From Pirellulales bacterium (GTDB lineage: Bacteria > Planctomycetota > Planctomycetia > Pirellulales > JACPPG01), in NCBI GenBank assembly GCA_036490175.1, contig DASXEJ010000359.1, positions 1 to 64,000 of the forward strand: a DNA stretch of 64,000 nucleotides. The letters run 5' to 3'. The notes beneath the pieces are model-generated. The model saw only the letters and a list, made by a program, of their open reading frames with translations, had not been told where the DNA came from and ran no database searches. A program made the translations under genes and the position numbers. Positions 32,633 through 59,758 of this stretch are shown in pieces. Each line of letters opens with the position of its first letter. Positions within the stretch are counted from its first letter, which is position 1.

Positions 32633-33705
32633 GTGCATTCGAACATTCGACGGGTCCGTGTTGTGCGGAGCGTAACAGCTCGCGAATCCTGCGCGTCCTC
32701 AATACACAACGTCAAATCTGACGTGCGCCGGCGTATCGTCTGCACGGTGCTCAGCGCCGCAGCACTCTGGGTCATGCCCACCATCGCGTACGGGCAGATA
32801 CTGGTCGCCGACAACAGGGCGGTTCGCGAGTACTATAACAATGGTGCGACGTTGAACCCGTCGTTGATCACAGGGGTTGATGTCGCCTACGACTTGGCAG
32901 TGTCTGGAATGGATCTCTACCTCACAAACTTCGGCAGCGGCCTTGCTAGCGACGGTTCGATTGCCAATACACAATTGCAGGCGCGTCCTTGAATACGCCG
33001 CTGGTCTCTGGGCTGACAAGCCCAACAGGGATCGCGGTATCGAGTACGAACGTTTATGTCGCGAATTTTAATCTCGGCACGATTGGCGAGTACGATGCCG
33101 TCACAGGCGCAGCGATAAACACGGCGCTGGTCACCGGCTTGGACGGCTCGTCTGGCATTGCCATCTCGGGTAATGACCTATTTGTCACGACAACTGGCGA
33201 TGGCACTGTGGGCGCCGGATCGGTTCTCGAATACGACGCAACCACGGGTGCGCTCATCAACCCCTCGCTAGTGACGGGCCTGAATTATCCCGTAGGGGTT
33301 ACGGTGTCTGGATCGAACCTGTTTGTCGTAAATAACGGCGGTGGTGCCGTGAGCGGTTCGATCGGAGAGTACACTACCGCAGGGGTGACGGTGAATGCCG
33401 CGTTGGTGACCGGACTGAATGATTTCCCTCAATATCTCGCGGTGTTTGGAACCAGCCTTTTTGTCACGAACGAAACCGCCGGAACGTCTAGCAGCGGTTC
33501 GATTGGTGAATACGATATCGCAACCGGGAGCCCGATCAATGCCGCATTGGTCACAGGATTGTTTCAGCCATTTGGCATCGCCGTAGTTGGCCCGCTCGTG
33601 CCGGAGCCCTCGACATTCGTCCTCGGCATCGCAGGCCTGGCAGGGCTTATCCTTGTCGCGATGCGGAAAACAAATCGCCACGTTCAGCGCGCCCCGGCCG
33701 CGTAA
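32633..33705 (+). pseudogene. PEP-CTERM repeat beta-propeller protein interrupted by one frameshift
   Basis: The N-terminal part (GTG 32633, AGGAGG 6 bases upstream, signal peptide ending IAYGQ) runs in one frame to a stop at 32992. The rest runs in another frame to 33705. The shift falls near 32964: frame one gives ...ASDGSIA, frame two resumes QYTIAGASLNTPLVSGL, which together restore the repeat. About six repeats of 45-53 residues follow the pattern NxxLVTGL-x-PxGIAVSGxxLFVxN...GSIGEYDxxTG. The C-terminus has the sorting signal VPEPSTFVLGIAGLAGLILVAMRKTNR. This may be a true frameshift, programmed shifting or a sequencing error. A single missing base restores a protein of about 357 residues. 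Confidence 0.75.
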
Positions 33706-40884: not shown

Positions 40885-41628
40885 ATGGGACGAGTCGCAC
40901 TAATCACGGGTGCCAGCCGGGGAATCGGTGCGGCAACCGCATTGTTACTGGCCAAACAGGGATACCGGGTGGTCGTCAACCACCGCGCCAGTGCGCCGCA
41001 TGCCGAGGAGGTGGTGGCCACCATCGCAGCGGCCGGCGGGGAAGCGGTGGCGATTAAAGCCGACGTCACCGTGCCTAACGACGTCACCGCCATGGTCGAT
41101 GAAATCGATCGGCGGTGGGGTGGGACGGACGTGCTCGTACACAATGCGATGACGCCGTTCGTGATCACCTCGTTCGCCAAGCTGAGCTGGGAGCAACTCG
41201 GCGGCAAGTTGGATAGTGAGCTGCATGCCGCTTTTCTGATGACCAAAGCCGTTGTGCCGGGAATGACTTCGCGCGGATATGGTCGGCTGATCTATCTGAC
41301 TGCCGGGCTGTCGCGCCACGCGCGCGAGGGGATGATCGCGCTGGGCACCGCCAAGGCGGCCCTGGACCAGTTCGTGCGGTACGTCGCTCTGGAGCTGGCG
41401 TCGCAGGGAATTACCGCGAACCTGGTCGCTCCGTCTACGGTGGAAGGAACCAGGGTGACCGAGCAATTGACGGCCGAGCGGCTGCGCGAGCTGGCCGCCG
41501 CCACACCGATGCGTCGGCTGGTGCGGCCCGAAGATATCGCCAAGACAATTGCCTTCTTGGCAAGCGAGGATTCCGGCTTCACCACCGGCCACTACCTTCC
41601 CGTCAACGGCGGCCTGGCAATGGACTAA
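40885..41628 (+). CDS. SDR-family protein lacking the catalytic Ser and Tyr
   Basis: The 247-residue protein is a classical SDR in outline: TGASRGIGAATALLL (cofactor), KADVT, LVHNAMTP, and a typical C-terminus ending FTTGHYLPVNGGLAMD. Aligned on the GR(L/I)I strand and the KAAL helix, the position of the catalytic Ser holds A140 and that of the catalytic Tyr holds L153 (IALGTAKAAL instead of YxxxK), while K157 is retained. A FabG-like reductase activity is therefore doubtful; binding, another chemistry or a subunit role is possible. It sits between mmsA and an NMT1-like gene, 52 bases before the latter. Confidence 0.83.
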   Translation: MGRVALITGASRGIGAATALLLAKQGYRVVVNHRASAPHAEEVVATIAAAGGEAVAIKADVTVPNDVTAMVDEIDRRWGGTDVLVHNAMTPFVITSFAKLSWEQLGGKLDSELHAAFLMTKAVVPGMTSRGYGRLIYLTAGLSRHAREGMIALGTAKAALDQFVRYVALELASQGITANLVAPSTVEGTRVTEQLTAERLRELAAATPMRRLVRPEDIAKTIAFLASEDSGFTTGHYLPVNGGLAMD

Positions 41629-41680
41629 ATGCAGCAAGCGCGAACGCACGATCCTAGATTCCGAGATAAGGAGACAGGCT

Positions 41681-42562
41681 ATGCCGCCTGCGCACACGAT
41701 CGATCTGGCCTTCGTCGGCCGCGGACTCCACGAAGAACTGATCGCATTTGTGGCCGATCAGGAGGGGTATTTCGAGGATGAAGGCATCCACGTCGCGGTC
41801 CGCGACGGAATCAGGTGGAAGACCGAACGATTGCGCGGCGGCGCAACCATCGGTTTAGGTCGGACCTTGTTGTCACGGCTGACCGATGGCATCCCCTGGA
41901 ATATGCTGGCCGTCAACACGCATCGTCCCCTGTTCTGGTTCCTTGGGCGCGGCGAGGTGAAATCCATGCAGGATCTTCGCGGGCGCCGATTGGCGGTCCA
42001 CCCACCCCGCACCGCACCCGGCTGTTTCGCGCGGATCGTGCTCCGCAAGCACGGTCTCGACCCCGATCGCGATCTGCAGTGCCTAGCACGATTCCCGGGT
42101 GACTACCAGATGGATCTACGCCGCCTTCGCGACGGTTCGATCGATGCGGCCTACGTGGGCAGCACTTTGGCGCCCGAACAGGTTGCGGCCGAGGAGGGCT
42201 ATTCGGTCCTGTCCTGGGTCGGCGACCACTTTCAGATTCCCACCGTGGGGATCGCTGTGGACCCCACGCATATCCCGCTCGACGACCCGGCGCTTTTGGC
42301 GCTGGTGCGAGCCAACCAGCGCGCCCTTCGTACAATCGCCGAAAAACCCCAGTTAGCCATCGACTACATCGCCTATTTCCTAAACCGGCTGACGCGTGAT
42401 GAAGTGCAGCAATACTACGATCGCTACATTGGCCCCTACTTCACGTCTGACGGTCGGGTAGATCTCAACGTTGCTCAGCAGGCGGTCAACGCGGTCGCCA
42501 GCGAACTCGGAGTCGCCCCGGCATCCGCTGACGAGATCTACCGCCCTTCACCGAACGGCTAG
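41681..42562 (+). CDS. NMT1/SsuA-like substrate-binding-fold protein without a signal peptide
   Basis: The 293-residue protein has the two-lobed NMT1/THI5-like binding fold: IDLAFVGRGLHEELIAFVADQEGYFEDEGIHVAV at the N-terminus, SMQDLRGRRLAVHPPRTAPGCFARIVLRKHGLDPDRDL in the middle and DGSIDAAYVGSTLAPEQVAAEEG. AAGGAG lies 8 bases before ATG 41681. No leader or lipobox is present and no ABC permease or ATPase gene is nearby, which is unusual for a transport binding protein. It could act as a cytoplasmic sensor or enzyme (inference). It follows the SDR gene by 52 bases and precedes a monooxygenase gene by 73 bases. Confidence 0.78.
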   Translation: MPPAHTIDLAFVGRGLHEELIAFVADQEGYFEDEGIHVAVRDGIRWKTERLRGGATIGLGRTLLSRLTDGIPWNMLAVNTHRPLFWFLGRGEVKSMQDLRGRRLAVHPPRTAPGCFARIVLRKHGLDPDRDLQCLARFPGDYQMDLRRLRDGSIDAAYVGSTLAPEQVAAEEGYSVLSWVGDHFQIPTVGIAVDPTHIPLDDPALLALVRANQRALRTIAEKPQLAIDYIAYFLNRLTRDEVQQYYDRYIGPYFTSDGRVDLNVAQQAVNAVASELGVAPASADEIYRPSPNG

Positions 42563-42635
42563 GCGGCGGCGTGGCGGAACGAGTAATCCAAGAGACCGGG
42601 ATAACCTTTTCACTGAACAGGCGACTGAGGCATTG

Positions 42636-43688
42636 ATGAGGATCATTATCAATGGGGTAGGCATCGCCGGTCCGACACTCGCGTATTGGCTATCGAAGTC
42701 CGGTCACGACGTGGCGCTCGTTGAGGAGGCGCCACAGCTCCGTCGTGGCGGCTTCTCGGTCGACGTTTTCGGCCGGCTGACTCATGGCCGGTTCACAAGC
42801 CTACGGCGCTCTGATCTTTCCGCCACGATCTACCAAGCGCTGAATGATCAAGTCGAAACGATCTTCGGCGACTCCATTGCCAGGGTCGAGGACGCGGGGC
42901 AGTGCGTGCGGGTCAGCTTCGATAATGCCGCCCCGCGCGAGGCCGACCTAGTCATCGGTGCCGACGGGCTGCATTCGCGCGTCCGCCGGCTCGCGTTCGG
43001 GCCCGAAGCAGGGTTTGAAGTCTCGCTGGGTTATCACGTCGCTGCGTTTGAGGTCGAGGGGTACCGGCCGCGTGACGAACTCGTTTACGTCAGCTACGGC
43101 GTTCCGGGAAAACAGATTTCTCGATTTTCCATGCGCGAGAACAAGACGCTCTTTCTCTTCGTTTTTCGTGACGAATACTTGCCCGTCGAGAACATCTCGA
43201 CTGAACAAGAAGGCAAATCCGCGCTGAGGAGCGTCTTTGCCGGCCTCGGCTGGGAATGTCCCGAGATCCTTGCCGCCATGGAGAAGGCCAGTGAAATCTA
43301 TTTCGACCAGGCCAGTCAGATTCGGATGGATCGCTGGACAACTGGCCGCACGGCGCTGATTAGTGATGCGGCAGCTTGCGTTTCCCTGCTCGCGGGTGAA
43401 GGCACCGGACTGGCGATGCTAGAGGCCTACGTGCTTGCCGGTGAGCTTTGCGTTTGCGGGGGGGGCCACTGCATCGCCGTTGCCCGCTATCAGGAGCGCA
43501 TGATGCCGCTGCTGAAGCGCAAGCAGAAATCGGCGGCGAAATTCGCCAGCTCTTTCGCCCCGAAGAGTGCTTTCGGAATTCGGTTCCGCAACATCGTCAC
43601 CCGGCTGATGGGACTACCATGCGTTACGGATTTCTTCATCGGTCGCGATCTGCGCGATACCGTCGCAATACCTGACTACGGCTACTGA
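42636..43688 (+). CDS. FAD-dependent monooxygenase, UbiH/PHBH type, apparently internally shortened
   Basis: The 350-residue flavoprotein has the N-terminal FAD motif INGVGIAGPTLAYWLSKSGHDVALVEEA, the DG motif VIGADGLHSRVRRLAFG, and the second FAD motif ALISDAAACVSLLAGEGTGLAMLEAYVLAGEL. It is shorter than typical members (about 390-410). After GGFSVDVFG the sequence jumps to RLTHGRFTSLRRSDL, where relatives I recall carry about 40 extra residues, so an in-frame deletion is suspected. ATG 42636 has GAGG 6 bases upstream. It is the last of five same-strand metabolic genes. The substrate is unknown. Confidence 0.8.
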   Translation: MRIIINGVGIAGPTLAYWLSKSGHDVALVEEAPQLRRGGFSVDVFGRLTHGRFTSLRRSDLSATIYQALNDQVETIFGDSIARVEDAGQCVRVSFDNAAPREADLVIGADGLHSRVRRLAFGPEAGFEVSLGYHVAAFEVEGYRPRDELVYVSYGVPGKQISRFSMRENKTLFLFVFRDEYLPVENISTEQEGKSALRSVFAGLGWECPEILAAMEKASEIYFDQASQIRMDRWTTGRTALISDAAACVSLLAGEGTGLAMLEAYVLAGELCVCGGGHCIAVARYQERMMPLLKRKQKSAAKFASSFAPKSAFGIRFRNIVTRLMGLPCVTDFFIGRDLRDTVAIPDYGY

Positions 43689-54384: not shown

Positions 54385-55467
54385 TCAAGGTTTGGGAATG
54401 AAGCGCCGTTGTTGAAAGTCCTGCATCTGCCGGAGTAGCATTTCCTCGGTATCGACGACGTCGTGGAACCCGAACCGTCGGGCCTTCGTTGTATCGGACA
54501 TCACGTCGTATTCGAGATTGAAGACCGCTTCGCCGAAGGGCCAGGCCGCCGCGTCGCGGAACGAGTAATCCAAGAGGCCGTACTTCTGAACCATACTGCG
54601 CCACAACGGCTCCTTGTCGGCCATGAATTGGGTCAGCGGGAGGCGTAAGGGGGGCGCGAGCGGAAGTTGAAAAAAGTCTGCCAAGCGCGGCCAGAGGTTC
54701 TCCCAGCGGTGGAAGTCGCCGTTGGTGATGTTAAAGGCTTCTCCATCGCAGCAGTCGCTCTCGGCAGCCCAGATAGCGGCCTTGGCCAGCAAGTCGGCGT
54801 CGGTCATTTCCATCAGGCCGCCATAGGCTTTGGCCGAGCCCGGGAAGCGCAGGGGCAGGCCAAGCTCGCGACAGAACGACGCGTAGACGGCGATGACCGT
54901 GGCCATGTTCATCGGGTTGCCCACCGCAAAGCCGCAGATGCACGAGGGGCGCAGCGCGGTCCACGACCAGTTCCGACCGGCAGACTTGGCCTGGAGATAA
55001 TCCTCCTGGTCGTAATAGAAATTGGGCGGCAAGTGACGCGGATCCTGCTCGCGGGCCGGTGTCTTGTAGGGACCCAGATGGGCGCCGTAGTACTTGGCCC
55101 CCTCCATGAGCACGACCTTCCTGAGTCGGCTCGACGAGCGCTCGACGGCCTCGACCGCGTTCCGCAGCATTGCCAGGTTGAGCCCGACCTCTTCGAACGG
55201 ACTCGGCCGCATCTGCAGCGCCGTGTAGAAGACGTGGCTGACGTCGTGAAACTCGCCTTGGCACCGCGCGACCTCCAACGGATCGAGCAGGTCGACCGTC
55301 AGGAACCGGGCCGACGTTGGAAATTCGGGAGCCCGGCGCGAGATGCCGATAACCTCCCAATCGCCCAGCGCCGTCAGGTGGTTCACAATCGCCCGGCCGC
55401 TCACGCCCAAGGCGCCTGCGACCACAGCTTTCTTGCGTGCAGGTTCCGTGTGCTGGGGGCGCGTCAT
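54385..55467 (-). CDS. PRISE-type extended SDR (progesterone 5-beta-reductase / iridoid synthase-like)
   Basis: The 360-residue enzyme has an N-terminal Rossmann motif, VVAGALGVSGRAIVNHLTALGDWEVIGISRR, and the family-typical NFYYDQED segment near residue 150, where the catalytic Tyr of this family lies. KYYGAHLGPYKTPAREQDPR and WTALRPSCICGFAVGNPMNM are also characteristic. Such enzymes reduce activated C=C bonds of enones. It is a single-gene unit, in opposite orientation to the monooxygenase at 56366. The physiological substrate is unknown. Confidence 0.85.
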   Translation of the reverse strand: MTRPQHTEPARKKAVVAGALGVSGRAIVNHLTALGDWEVIGISRRAPEFPTSARFLTVDLLDPLEVARCQGEFHDVSHVFYTALQMRPSPFEEVGLNLAMLRNAVEAVERSSSRLRKVVLMEGAKYYGAHLGPYKTPAREQDPRHLPPNFYYDQEDYLQAKSAGRNWSWTALRPSCICGFAVGNPMNMATVIAVYASFCRELGLPLRFPGSAKAYGGLMEMTDADLLAKAAIWAAESDCCDGEAFNITNGDFHRWENLWPRLADFFQLPLAPPLRLPLTQFMADKEPLWRSMVQKYGLLDYSFRDAAAWPFGEAVFNLEYDVMSDTTKARRFGFHDVVDTEEMLLRQMQDFQQRRFIPKP

Positions 55468-55668
55468 CGAGCTCTCCTGGGGAATGAAAGCAGCGGATCT
55501 TTCGAAAACTATAACGGCAGTGTAGAGCCAGTGTTAGGCGATCTTACGGTGACGGGACGGGATAGCACATCCGCAACGAGAGACGCTGCCGGACATTGTC
55601 CGCTTAGCTCATGTTGCCCGCAGGCGGGTTAAATTCGGCGTGTGGCAGCGCAGTGGCACGAGCGCGGT
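55468..55668. other. Upstream region of the PRISE gene, nothing recognised
   Basis: AT-moderate sequence between the PRISE gene and the first copy of the dispersed repeat. No gene or hairpin was identified. Confidence 0.3.
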
Positions 55669-55753
55669 GGCCAGGTCGGATTGGATCCCAGGGGGGAGCT
55701 GACGAGAATCAAGGTCGCTTTGATCAGGTTTCGTCGCTCAGGTATCTGGCAGG
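55669..55753. repeat. Dispersed repeat, copy 1 of 3
   Basis: An imperfect element of about 85 bases begins GGCCAGGTCGGAT and has the core GACGAGAATCAAGGTCGCTT, then TTTCGTCGCTCAGGT. The same layout recurs at 56094 and 56285. On the minus strand each copy reads as a related peptide with RRN-x-IKA (here RRNLIKATLILV), though no complete gene is evident. Confidence 0.65.
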
Positions 55754-56093
55754 ACAAGAAGGGACCAAGAACTTGCCCTGCGTAGTCTCTGCCGGTGGCC
55801 GGAGCTTTGCTTGGAAGCGGATTGTCGAGGCGCTTTTACTCGTTGCTGCGCGGGGGCTGATGACCGTAGCTTCGACGGATCCCCGCATGATAGTATCGCG
55901 GGTCGCACTCTTGAGTCCTTATCGTGCAGCCCGACAAATCGACGGCACGGACCGGTTAGACGCCAAGGGCCTGGCAATGCACGTCGCCGTATGATGCGAA
56001 TACGAGGTAACCGGGAGGGCTGTGAGCGTTGATCGTGAGTCTGCCGCCGATCACATCGACCTATGACGCGTTCGTTCATTGTTGCACCGCAGC
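55754..56093. other. Spacer between repeat copies 1 and 2
   Basis: About 340 bases with no supportable gene. A minus-strand frame (55738-56193) runs through it and into copy 2, but it has no recognised family. Confidence 0.35.
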
Positions 56094-56176
56094 GGCCGGT
56101 CGGATCGAGTTTCACGGCAATGCCAATGAGAATCAGGCTCGCTTTGATCTCGTTTCGTCGCCCAGGTGCCATGCGG
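56094..56176. repeat. Dispersed repeat, copy 2 of 3
   Basis: The copy begins GGCCGGTCGGAT, with core ATGAGAATCAGGCTCGCTTT and TTTCGTCGCCCAGGTGCCATG. The minus strand reads RRNEIKASLILIGIAVKLDPT. Similarity to copy 3 seems to extend about 25 bases further on the 5' side. Confidence 0.65.
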
Positions 56177-56284
56177 TCACTGGCCGCGCGCACATCACGA
56201 ACCTATCTAAGCCACGACCTGAGATTGTAATGACGTGCCTTGGTCGTTGCCCACGGGCGGATTTGTGCGGTGTGTCGCGGCGGC

Positions 56285-56370
56285 GCCGCAGGTTGGATTG
56301 ATTTTCCTGGGCGAGGTAACGAGAATCGAGCACGCTTTAATCCCGTTTCGTCGCACAGGTGCCACGTGGC
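56285..56370. repeat. Dispersed repeat, copy 3 of 3, overlapping the monooxygenase start
   Basis: The copy begins GCCGCAGGTTGGAT, with core ACGAGAATCGAGCACGCTTT and TTTCGTCGCACAGGTGCCACG. Its last bases supply the CAGGTG ribosome site and GTG start of the following monooxygenase gene. The minus strand reads RRNGIKACSILVTSPRKINPT. Confidence 0.65.
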
Positions 56371-57943
56371 TGCTGATACAACCGTTCTCGTCGTGGGGGC
56401 CGGGCCGACAGGATTGCTCTTGGCTGCCGAGCTGATTCGTCGCGGGATCGATTGCACGATCATCGATCGCCAGCCGACGCCGTCGGTGTGGGATCGGGCC
56501 ACGATCGTTCACCCACGTTCGCTCGAGGTGTTCGAGTCGCTGGGGATCGTCGATGCCTTTCTCGAGCGCGGCGTGAAGCAACGCTTCGCCCGGCTGCACT
56601 CGGCGGGATGCGTGCTGGGTGACATTGATCTTTCGCTGTGCGGCAGCCGGTACGAATTCAACATCGGCATTTCCGAGGAAGTGACCGAGTCGATTCTGAC
56701 CGACTATCTTCACCGGCAGGGGGGCCGCGTTACTCGCACATCGCAATTGGTCAAGCTGGACCAGCAGTCAGAGTGTGTTACGGCCACCATCCTCTGCGAA
56801 GGCGCCACGAAAGTTATTTCGGCCGACTGGGTGGTCGGTTGCGACGGATACCATAGCGCTGTGCGGCAGCAATGTGGAATCGAGCTCCGCGGCAGCGATT
56901 CGGACGATCCCTGGGCCGTATTCGATACCACGCTGATCGGCTGGCATGGTTCGCATGAAGCCATTTATGGATATCTAGACGTGGTGCCGGTGATCCTCAC
57001 CTCGCTGCCTCGATCGCGATGGCGCGTCTATCTGAGGCCAAGTGCTCTTGACTCCGATCTGCTGGACGATGCGGCGGCTACGCTTCAGCCGTATTTTCCG
57101 GCGATCGCATTCGCAGACGTTGCCAATCCGACGCGCTTTCGTTGCCACGCCAAGGTTGCAACCAGTTTTCGAGCGGGCCGCGTGCTGCTGGCAGGCGATG
57201 CGGCCCACATCTGTTCTCCGTCGCAAGGACATGGCATGAACAGTGGTCTGCAAGACGCATTCAATCTGGCCTGGAAGCTGGCTCTTGTCGCAGGCCGCCA
57301 TTGCGCGCAGGACTTGCTGAACAGTTATGAAGCCGAGCGGCGCCCCGTCGCTCAGAAGAACGCCCTCTCGGGGGACGAGTTCGAACGAGCTCAGGACCTC
57401 ACCGACCCGGAACAACGACGCCAGCGCGACAAGGGACTCACGGCCACATTTACCGACCCTGCGTCTTGCTATCGCGAATCGATCTCGGAGGCCGAACTCG
57501 ACATCGACTACGCCACCTCTCCGATCGTACTCGGCGATGCAAACTCAACGATCGGCCCGGGACAGCGACTGCCCAACACGATCGAGGTGTTTCCGGCGAG
57601 CGGCGAAGTCAGCCGGCTGCACGAATTAACGCATCGTGCCGGCCACACCGTGCTGCTGATAGACGGCGCCGACGCCGCGGGCGATCGCCTGGCTGACATA
57701 GCCGAGTTACTGGCGGCTCGCGGCAGCCCGCTGCTTCTCGAAGCGACGCTCCTCTTGGCTGTCCATCCCGACCAGCGGTGCGCGTCCATTCCTTTGACTC
57801 GGGGGACCGCCGAGGAGTTGGGAGTTAGCGAGATCACGATGCTGGTGATTCGTCCCGACGGACACGTCGGCCTGCGCGCCGATCGCGACCACCTTCAGGC
57901 GTTGACGGACTATTGCAACTTGTTGGCATCCGTCGAGAGTTAA
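56366..57943 (+). CDS. FAD-dependent aromatic-type monooxygenase (PheA/TfdB family)
   Basis: The 525-residue flavoprotein hydroxylase shows FAD motif one, TVLVVGAGPTGLLLAAELIRRGIDCTIIDR, the DG motif WVVGCDGYHSAVRQQCGI, and motif two, GRVLLAGDAAHICSPSQGHGMNSGLQDAFNLAWKLALV. The C-terminal thioredoxin-like domain of this family (VLLIDGADAAGDR... ITMLVIRPDGHVGLRAD) is present. It would use NAD(P)H and O2 to hydroxylate a phenolic or polyketide-like substrate. The GTG at 56366 is the best start; the frame is open upstream into the dispersed repeat. It has no neighbouring ring-cleavage genes. Confidence 0.88.
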   Translation: MAADTTVLVVGAGPTGLLLAAELIRRGIDCTIIDRQPTPSVWDRATIVHPRSLEVFESLGIVDAFLERGVKQRFARLHSAGCVLGDIDLSLCGSRYEFNIGISEEVTESILTDYLHRQGGRVTRTSQLVKLDQQSECVTATILCEGATKVISADWVVGCDGYHSAVRQQCGIELRGSDSDDPWAVFDTTLIGWHGSHEAIYGYLDVVPVILTSLPRSRWRVYLRPSALDSDLLDDAAATLQPYFPAIAFADVANPTRFRCHAKVATSFRAGRVLLAGDAAHICSPSQGHGMNSGLQDAFNLAWKLALVAGRHCAQDLLNSYEAERRPVAQKNALSGDEFERAQDLTDPEQRRQRDKGLTATFTDPASCYRESISEAELDIDYATSPIVLGDANSTIGPGQRLPNTIEVFPASGEVSRLHELTHRAGHTVLLIDGADAAGDRLADIAELLAARGSPLLLEATLLLAVHPDQRCASIPLTRGTAEELGVSEITMLVIRPDGHVGLRADRDHLQALTDYCNLLASVES

Positions 57944-58033: not shown

Positions 58034-59758
58034 CTATTTCTTGTCGGCCGCGGTGATCGTTAGCCAGACATCCTTGGTTCGCCGTGTGCGACCGGACATG
58101 GTCGCTTCGGCGAAGTGGACCGAGGATTCGGTGCCTGCGGCTGTTCCCACCACGCGAATGGGTCCCGTAAACGGCGCGTCGCCCGCAGTAACGACAAGCT
58201 GCACGCTCTTGGCCGATTCTCCCTCGGGCTGCGACACGACAGGTTCGGCGGTTACGCCGCTCGGCAATCCCTTGATGCGTAGCTCGATCGGTACGTTAAA
58301 CCCCTGCAATCGCTCAATCGTCACCGGCAGCTCGAGTTTTTGGCCGGTGGCGACCGTGAAGTTGTCGGCAGCGAGCGACAATGTAAAGTCCGCGCGCGCG
58401 ATCGTGGCCGAAAGTCGATAGACGAAGCGCGGTCCGCCCTGCCGGTGCAAATCAGTCACCGTGACGTCGTAGGCGCCGTCGGCCGGCGCGGCGAAGGCGA
58501 GTTGCGCGTCACGGTTTTCTCCCAAATCGTCGACGCGCGCGAGTGATTTGCCTTGGCTGTCGATGATTTCCAGCACCGGATCGAGCGGAAATCCGAGCGC
58601 GCGGCTTTCGATCCGCAAGTTGATCGTTTCGCCCGCTTTCGCACTGAAGCGAAAGGAGTCATTATCTCGCGGCGCTTCGATGCGGCCACTGATCGTCACC
58701 GGAAGTTGGATGGCTTGCGGATGGCCGGGCACACTGGGCTCGGCCGCCACGATGCAGGGATGCGTTTCGAGCGGCAGGACGAGCGTGTTGACGATCCGTG
58801 GATGAGCCAACAGCGCCTGCTTCGCTTCGGGCAGCAGTCGCGGAAGCAGTTGCCGTGCGTCGTCGGGCAGGTTCCAACCGTGAACTTCGACCTGTTGATC
58901 CACGCTAGCGACCGCAAGGGGAAGCGCATAATCCCCAAACCCGCCGACAGCAATCGTCAGGCGGTACACCGAAGTTTCATCTCCGGCGAGCGAGATCGTG
59001 CTGTTGGGCGTGGCCGGAAAACAAAACGTGCGCACCAGGTAAACGCCACTCGCTGGCGCGGTGAACACAATGCGAGGATCGATCTCCTGATCGTCATCAT
59101 TGTGCGCGAGCACAAAGCCCTCGGCTGAGACGACTTCCAGTAACGTATCGATGGGCGAGGCCAATGTGCGATGCGCTTCGACGTCGGCCACGAGGGTTTG
59201 GCCTTTTTCGACGCGGACCGCGAATGTGTCGACGTCCCCCTTGCGCCGCAATCGGCCATTCACCACGACGTTGGGTGCGTCAAGTTGCTGCGGCTTGGTT
59301 GGCGAGTCGTTCGGCTCCTGCTCGTTCACCTCGGGCAGATTCCCCACGATCAAGGGCGCCGGCGAACTTGTCCCAGCGGCATCGTACAGCCGGAGCCAAT
59401 ACAGGCCCGGCGTGGCGTCTGCGGCGACCGTGACGGACAACTCCCCTTTCGATTCTTTGGGACTGACCGATACGCCGGGCTGATCGACCCACACCCTGAC
59501 AGGCCAGGAGTCGAACTTTCCATGCGCTTCGATATCGAGCGTCTGTCCGACCTGCGCGCCAGCCGGAACCAGGTACTTCAGTTGCGGGGGCGCCGCAGTG
59601 CTTGTCGTGGGGAACAAGAACATGCAGAAAAGTAGCAGTTTCCCACCGCATGGCAGTCCGAATGGCAGTGCCCAGCGGAACAAAAGAGTCCAACGGGGTG
59701 CCGGCGCCAGACACCGTGGCCGCAGGCGCCGCGTGAGGGAACAAGGCCCGTCGATCAT
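58034..59758 (-). CDS. Exported PPC-domain protein (two bacterial pre-peptidase C-terminal domains)
   Basis: The 574-residue protein has a long N-terminal basic segment and a hydrophobic leader (GGKLLLFCMFLFPTTSTAAPP). An Ig-like domain (LKYLVPAGAQVGQTLDIEAHGKF) is followed by two PPC-like jelly rolls: NEQEPNDSPTKPQQLDAPNVVVNGRLRRKGDVDTF... (residues ~150-270) and SGRIEAPRDNDSFRFSAKAGETINLRIESRALGFPLDPVLEIID (~345-450). A last beta domain ends FAEATMSGRTRRTKDVWLTI. PPC domains mediate secretion, binding or sorting. It starts 17 bases after the DUF1501 stop, as the last gene of the operon. The start is uncertain. Confidence 0.8.
   Translation of the reverse strand: MIDGPCSLTRRLRPRCLAPAPRWTLLFRWALPFGLPCGGKLLLFCMFLFPTTSTAAPPQLKYLVPAGAQVGQTLDIEAHGKFDSWPVRVWVDQPGVSVSPKESKGELSVTVAADATPGLYWLRLYDAAGTSSPAPLIVGNLPEVNEQEPNDSPTKPQQLDAPNVVVNGRLRRKGDVDTFAVRVEKGQTLVADVEAHRTLASPIDTLLEVVSAEGFVLAHNDDDQEIDPRIVFTAPASGVYLVRTFCFPATPNSTISLAGDETSVYRLTIAVGGFGDYALPLAVASVDQQVEVHGWNLPDDARQLLPRLLPEAKQALLAHPRIVNTLVLPLETHPCIVAAEPSVPGHPQAIQLPVTISGRIEAPRDNDSFRFSAKAGETINLRIESRALGFPLDPVLEIIDSQGKSLARVDDLGENRDAQLAFAAPADGAYDVTVTDLHRQGGPRFVYRLSATIARADFTLSLAADNFTVATGQKLELPVTIERLQGFNVPIELRIKGLPSGVTAEPVVSQPEGESAKSVQLVVTAGDAPFTGPIRVVGTAAGTESSVHFAEATMSGRTRRTKDVWLTITAADKK

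Follow-up and report, generated by a model that had tools for sequence, protein, structure and literature searches.

An imperfect three-copy direct repeat between divergent reductase and monooxygenase genes of a Pirellulales bacterium

The locus and its neighbouring genes

The window, that is, the whole stretch of 64,000 nucleotides that was analysed, comes from an assembly of 7.58 Mb in 393 contigs, and it includes a monooxygenase gene and a divergent reductase gene separated by a spacer of 898 nt, in which all three copies of the repeat described here are contained (Table 1).

Table 1. Position of the genes and repeat copies in the window
Feature	Coordinates	Strand	Remarks
PRISE-like/SDR reductase (PF22917)	54385..55467	-	divergent; separated from the monooxygenase by the copies
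weak sigma-70-like promoter match, 9/12	55508..55537	-	precedes the PRISE gene, not within the repeats; consensus match only
copy 1	55656..55752	+	core 55704-55743; gapped homology with copy 3 from near 55612
copy 2	56080..56176	+	core 56128-56167
copy 3	56273..56369	+	core 56321-56360; gapped homology with copy 1 from near 56245; ends in AGGTG ribosome-binding-like site
FAD-binding (PF01494) aromatic-ring-type monooxygenase	56366..57943	+	start GTG 56366

In the four other genomes of the genus that were compared, the sole match to the monooxygenase at E <= 1e-60 is 33% identical, and the reductase has no match at the same threshold. To the right, a DUF1501 gene, adjoined by a PPC-domain gene, is 86-92% identical in three of these four genomes. 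DNA similarity with three same-genus genomes stops at 58038-58311, and synteny with them breaks off where the PPC-domain gene has its stop end (window position 58038); to the left of this point, the monooxygenase and reductase genes are without a close counterpart in the four genomes. The monooxygenase and the reductase are accessory genes here. The nearest monooxygenases are found in a Pirellula MAG (62% identical) and in alpha-, betaproteobacteria and others (50-60%). Furthermore, Pfam scans of the neighbouring genes detected no transcription regulator. Elsewhere in the window, two overlapping plus-strand ORFs occur at 41549-43688, the second being a weak FAD_binding_3 match; such an overlap may reflect a broken frame or a start codon that was wrongly assigned.

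The repeat copies and their shared core

The preliminary description of this DNA had reported a three-copy imperfect repeat ending at a gene start, and our analysis confirmed it, roughly where it had been placed. The three direct copies follow one another in a row, with start-to-start spacings of 424 and 193 nt, and all of them share the same orientation, directed toward the monooxygenase gene. Their pairwise local alignments score 38.0, 40.5 and 43.0, whereas 300 dinucleotide shuffles of each reach at most 21.0, 18.5 and 20.0; a pattern of 34 nt, with no more than 3 mismatches allowed, has three sites in the window and none in 100 shuffled windows; and when 316 window tiles were each compared with the next 700 nt, the top two scores were those of the repeat copies. 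The three-copy repeat is real and limited to one spot; as a finding, it is real but ordinary.

The ungapped homology of the three copies covers about 97 nt, and copies 1 and 3, which additionally have the upstream block GTTGCCCRCRGGCGGRTT in common, show gapped homology over about 150 nt, so that the length of the element, internal indels included, is closer to 130-150 nt. The flanks of the copies decay gradually, and the homology has a sharp 3' edge at the CAGGT/ribosome site, downstream of which the sequences of the copies are unrelated. In copy 3, AGGTG lies 4 nt upstream of the GTG at 56366, which directly follows the conserved columns on their 3' side, and many monooxygenase homologues align from residue 1 of this start; the earlier proposal that the last copy supplies the ribosome site of the monooxygenase gene is borne out by this arrangement.

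All three copies share a 40-nt core, GAGAATC-N5-CGCTTTRATC-N2-GTTTCGTCGC-N-CAGGT. The elements GAGAATC, GCTTTRAT and CAGGT of the core as initially described are indeed common to all copies, but GAGAATC is followed by a longer gap than had been written. The core has 32 invariant columns out of 40, and the stretch directly preceding it 13 out of 29 (p = 0.004 in Fisher's test; p = 0.008 by permutation for the best window), a contrast weaker than these p-values since the bounds of the core were chosen after inspection, from three sequences. The sites are repeated in a putative promoter region, and, judging from the three copies, their sequence may be under constraint.

Distribution, coding potential and RNA structure

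With 3 mismatches allowed, the core has exactly three sites in its own genome, all in this spacer, and among 396 genomes of the order this is the one that has any, the remaining 395 having none. Exact-match scans with part of the core, from which the own record may be excluded, found no match in the approximately 85,000 species genomes of genome_contigs, where 20 of 22 positions were required without mismatch, or in viral_contigs. A sequence model built from the three copies scores the true copies at about 77 bits and the next best matches in 20 genomes at no more than 20 bits, among the candidates scored (the first 150 in most genomes); in the own genome, where 150 of 292 candidates were scored, the matches beyond the three copies are weak (E 0.044 and 1.24 among those 150). 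The best non-self match of the model (genome G008, 20 bits versus 77) sits in a protein frame and was rejected.

No record in the plasmid and phage collections carries the whole core. A looser plasmid search (E up to 10) returned six records, four of which are Hymenobacter arsB genes with a 23-nt exact match, of which 11 nt fall within the copy 2 core; none of the six records has the whole core. Short matches (19-56 nt, E <= 0.1) occur in 18 of 39 other genomes, where some touch part of a core and none spans one. Two matches to part of copy 2, one in an Allorhizobium plasmid (E 0.02, 41 nt) and one in genome G011 (E 3e-4, 33 nt), lie without the core in frames that read, from their translations, as oxidoreductase-like and response-regulator/phosphatase-like, respectively, and both were taken as chance. 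Moreover, the repeat model has no match in 80 homologous monooxygenase loci (59 and 21 in two sets), and the element is absent upstream of the homologous gene in the 68 of them that, counted by eye, extend 900 nt or more beyond the match on its upstream side. Within the flank examined, the reductase is next to the monooxygenase in none of the 80 loci, and the four loci that were checked for upstream direct repeats of their own of at least 25 nt have none.

The preliminary description had offered a small mobile repeat as one explanation, to be abandoned if the genome held no further copies and relatives did not conserve the core. A MITE- or REP-like element would agree with the likeness of the copies in length and with their single orientation, and such dispersed repeats are likewise short noncoding copies of similar length; unlike them, the copies studied here show no dispersal and no terminal inverted repeats, nor any palindrome pairing the copy ends. 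This reading fails because the copies are found at this locus only, with exactly three sites in 7.6 Mb, none in the 395 other genomes of the order and no exact match to part of the core in genome_contigs or viral_contigs; it is largely refuted, and we regard it as highly improbable. Integron attC cassette sites also come as copies of about 60-140 nt with ORF-sized spacers between them, but on reading the sequence we recognized neither inverted-repeat ends nor RYYYAAC/GTTRRRY sites, and no integrase is present among the neighbouring ORFs scanned. Motifs of attC-like and hammerhead-like type were considered by eye and discarded: CTGACGAG is present in copy 1 and is not kept in copies 2 and 3.

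The other explanation initially put forward was a relic of a repeated short coding element. The minus-strand RRN-x-IKA...ILV peptides had been correctly read, and neither the plus-strand ENQARFD frame nor the minus-strand RRN-IKA frame is interrupted by stops in the three copies; a coding relic is nevertheless not supported. The six-frame amino-acid similarity of the copies is not above that given by random bases at the variable columns, the best frame being plus ENQARFD (p = 0.03 among 12 tests, not significant beyond chance after these tests), with p = 0.14 and 0.43 for minus RRN-IKA-ILV, and the test revealed no protein-level conservation between copies. Against a coding element, moreover, the changes in the core fall equally on codon positions 2 and 3 of the plus ENQARFD frame (6 and 6 of 14), the spacings of 424 and 193 nt shift the frame, and the ORFs overlapping the copies match no Pfam or PHROGs family. 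A plasmid search with one of the copy frames gave no match. A repeated coding element is therefore disfavoured and can be considered extremely improbable.

A structured RNA leader, such as a riboswitch, an attenuator or a ribozyme, would be consistent with the location before the ribosome site and with a nested stem in the extended alignment, in which 4 of 31 pairs are changed on both sides. Conversely, on both strands shuffled alignments have on average a better consensus energy than the alignment of the copies (z +1.1 to +1.8), none of 19 pairs covaries in the 74-column alignment, and single copies are not clearly better folded than shuffles (z +0.4 to -1.6). No conserved secondary structure with covariation was found, within the limited power of three sequences, and no curated Rfam family matched above threshold, the one sub-threshold match (E 0.47, 17.4 bits versus a gathering score of 49) lying outside the cores. 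This reading is likewise disfavoured, and we deem it very unlikely. The lack of a coding signal, together with that of a common RNA fold, leaves constraint at the sequence level, on DNA or on unpaired RNA.

Origin of the copies and possible role of the core

The facts are accounted for most simply by a noncoding leader or regulatory segment having undergone local duplication, which fits the lack of additional copies in the genome, unlike a mobile repeat. It is possible to hypothesize that such a segment, about 75-150 nt long, gave rise on the spot to the three direct copies found in the spacer of 898 nt, copy 3 being the 5' leader of the monooxygenase gene that carries its ribosome-binding site. 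The core would be conserved because a DNA-binding protein (a repressor, an activator or the polymerase holoenzyme) recognises it, in which case copies 1 and 2 may be extra upstream sites controlling the monooxygenase and perhaps the divergent reductase too. We tentatively favour this local duplication with sequence-specific constraint on the core, at somewhat less than an even chance. In its favour are the contrast between core and flank, the sharp 3' edge at the ribosome site and the shared orientation toward the monooxygenase gene; against it, the element occurs in no homologous locus and the neighbouring genes include no regulator in Pfam scans. Furthermore, none of the 80 homologous loci has the reductase beside the monooxygenase, and this makes joint control of the two genes less plausible.

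Neutral decay of the duplicated copies comes close to this reading in likelihood, a putative binding-site core being only slightly preferred. Replication slippage or unequal recombination could have duplicated the segment twice, and the copies would now be decaying, with the better preservation of the core due to chance or to local gene conversion; the restriction of the copies to one spacer, the gradual decay of their flanks and the accessory neighbourhood make this a quite possible origin, although the core/flank contrast and the retention of the same short blocks by all three copies argue against it. We consider it unlikely, instead, that each copy once led a gene of its own and that the genes following copies 1 and 2 have disappeared except for remnants of about 290 and 60 nt, respectively. 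Such a loss would agree with the end of the copy 3 homology at the ribosome site and with the AGGTGCC-ATG after copy 2, which on direct reading opens a short frame, about 20 codons long; the remnants, however, resemble neither the monooxygenase nor the reductase nor the beta-lactamase-fold gene (DNA and six-frame protein comparison, best E 0.28), and their ORFs match no Pfam or PHROGs family.

As for the binding-site core within the favoured local duplication, multiple imperfect operator or promoter copies form a general class in which direct imperfect copies likewise occupy a divergent spacer, one of them overlapping a gene start. Different from that class, the 40-nt core is longer than the usual operator, no linked regulator is seen and relatives do not conserve the element; for a single dimeric regulator, 40 nt is a long motif. 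That the core is a regulatory site of an undescribed kind, used three times by an unlinked planctomycete factor on the accessory monooxygenase and perhaps on the reductase, seems improbable. If the core were a binding site, the locus would show an accessory enzyme gene gaining local control through duplication of its own leader, and if it were not, the repeat would represent a routine local duplication.

Three imperfect direct repeats of 30 nt are also present at 33073-33522 of the window, in the reading frame 32989-33705, where they probably correspond to a repeated protein motif.
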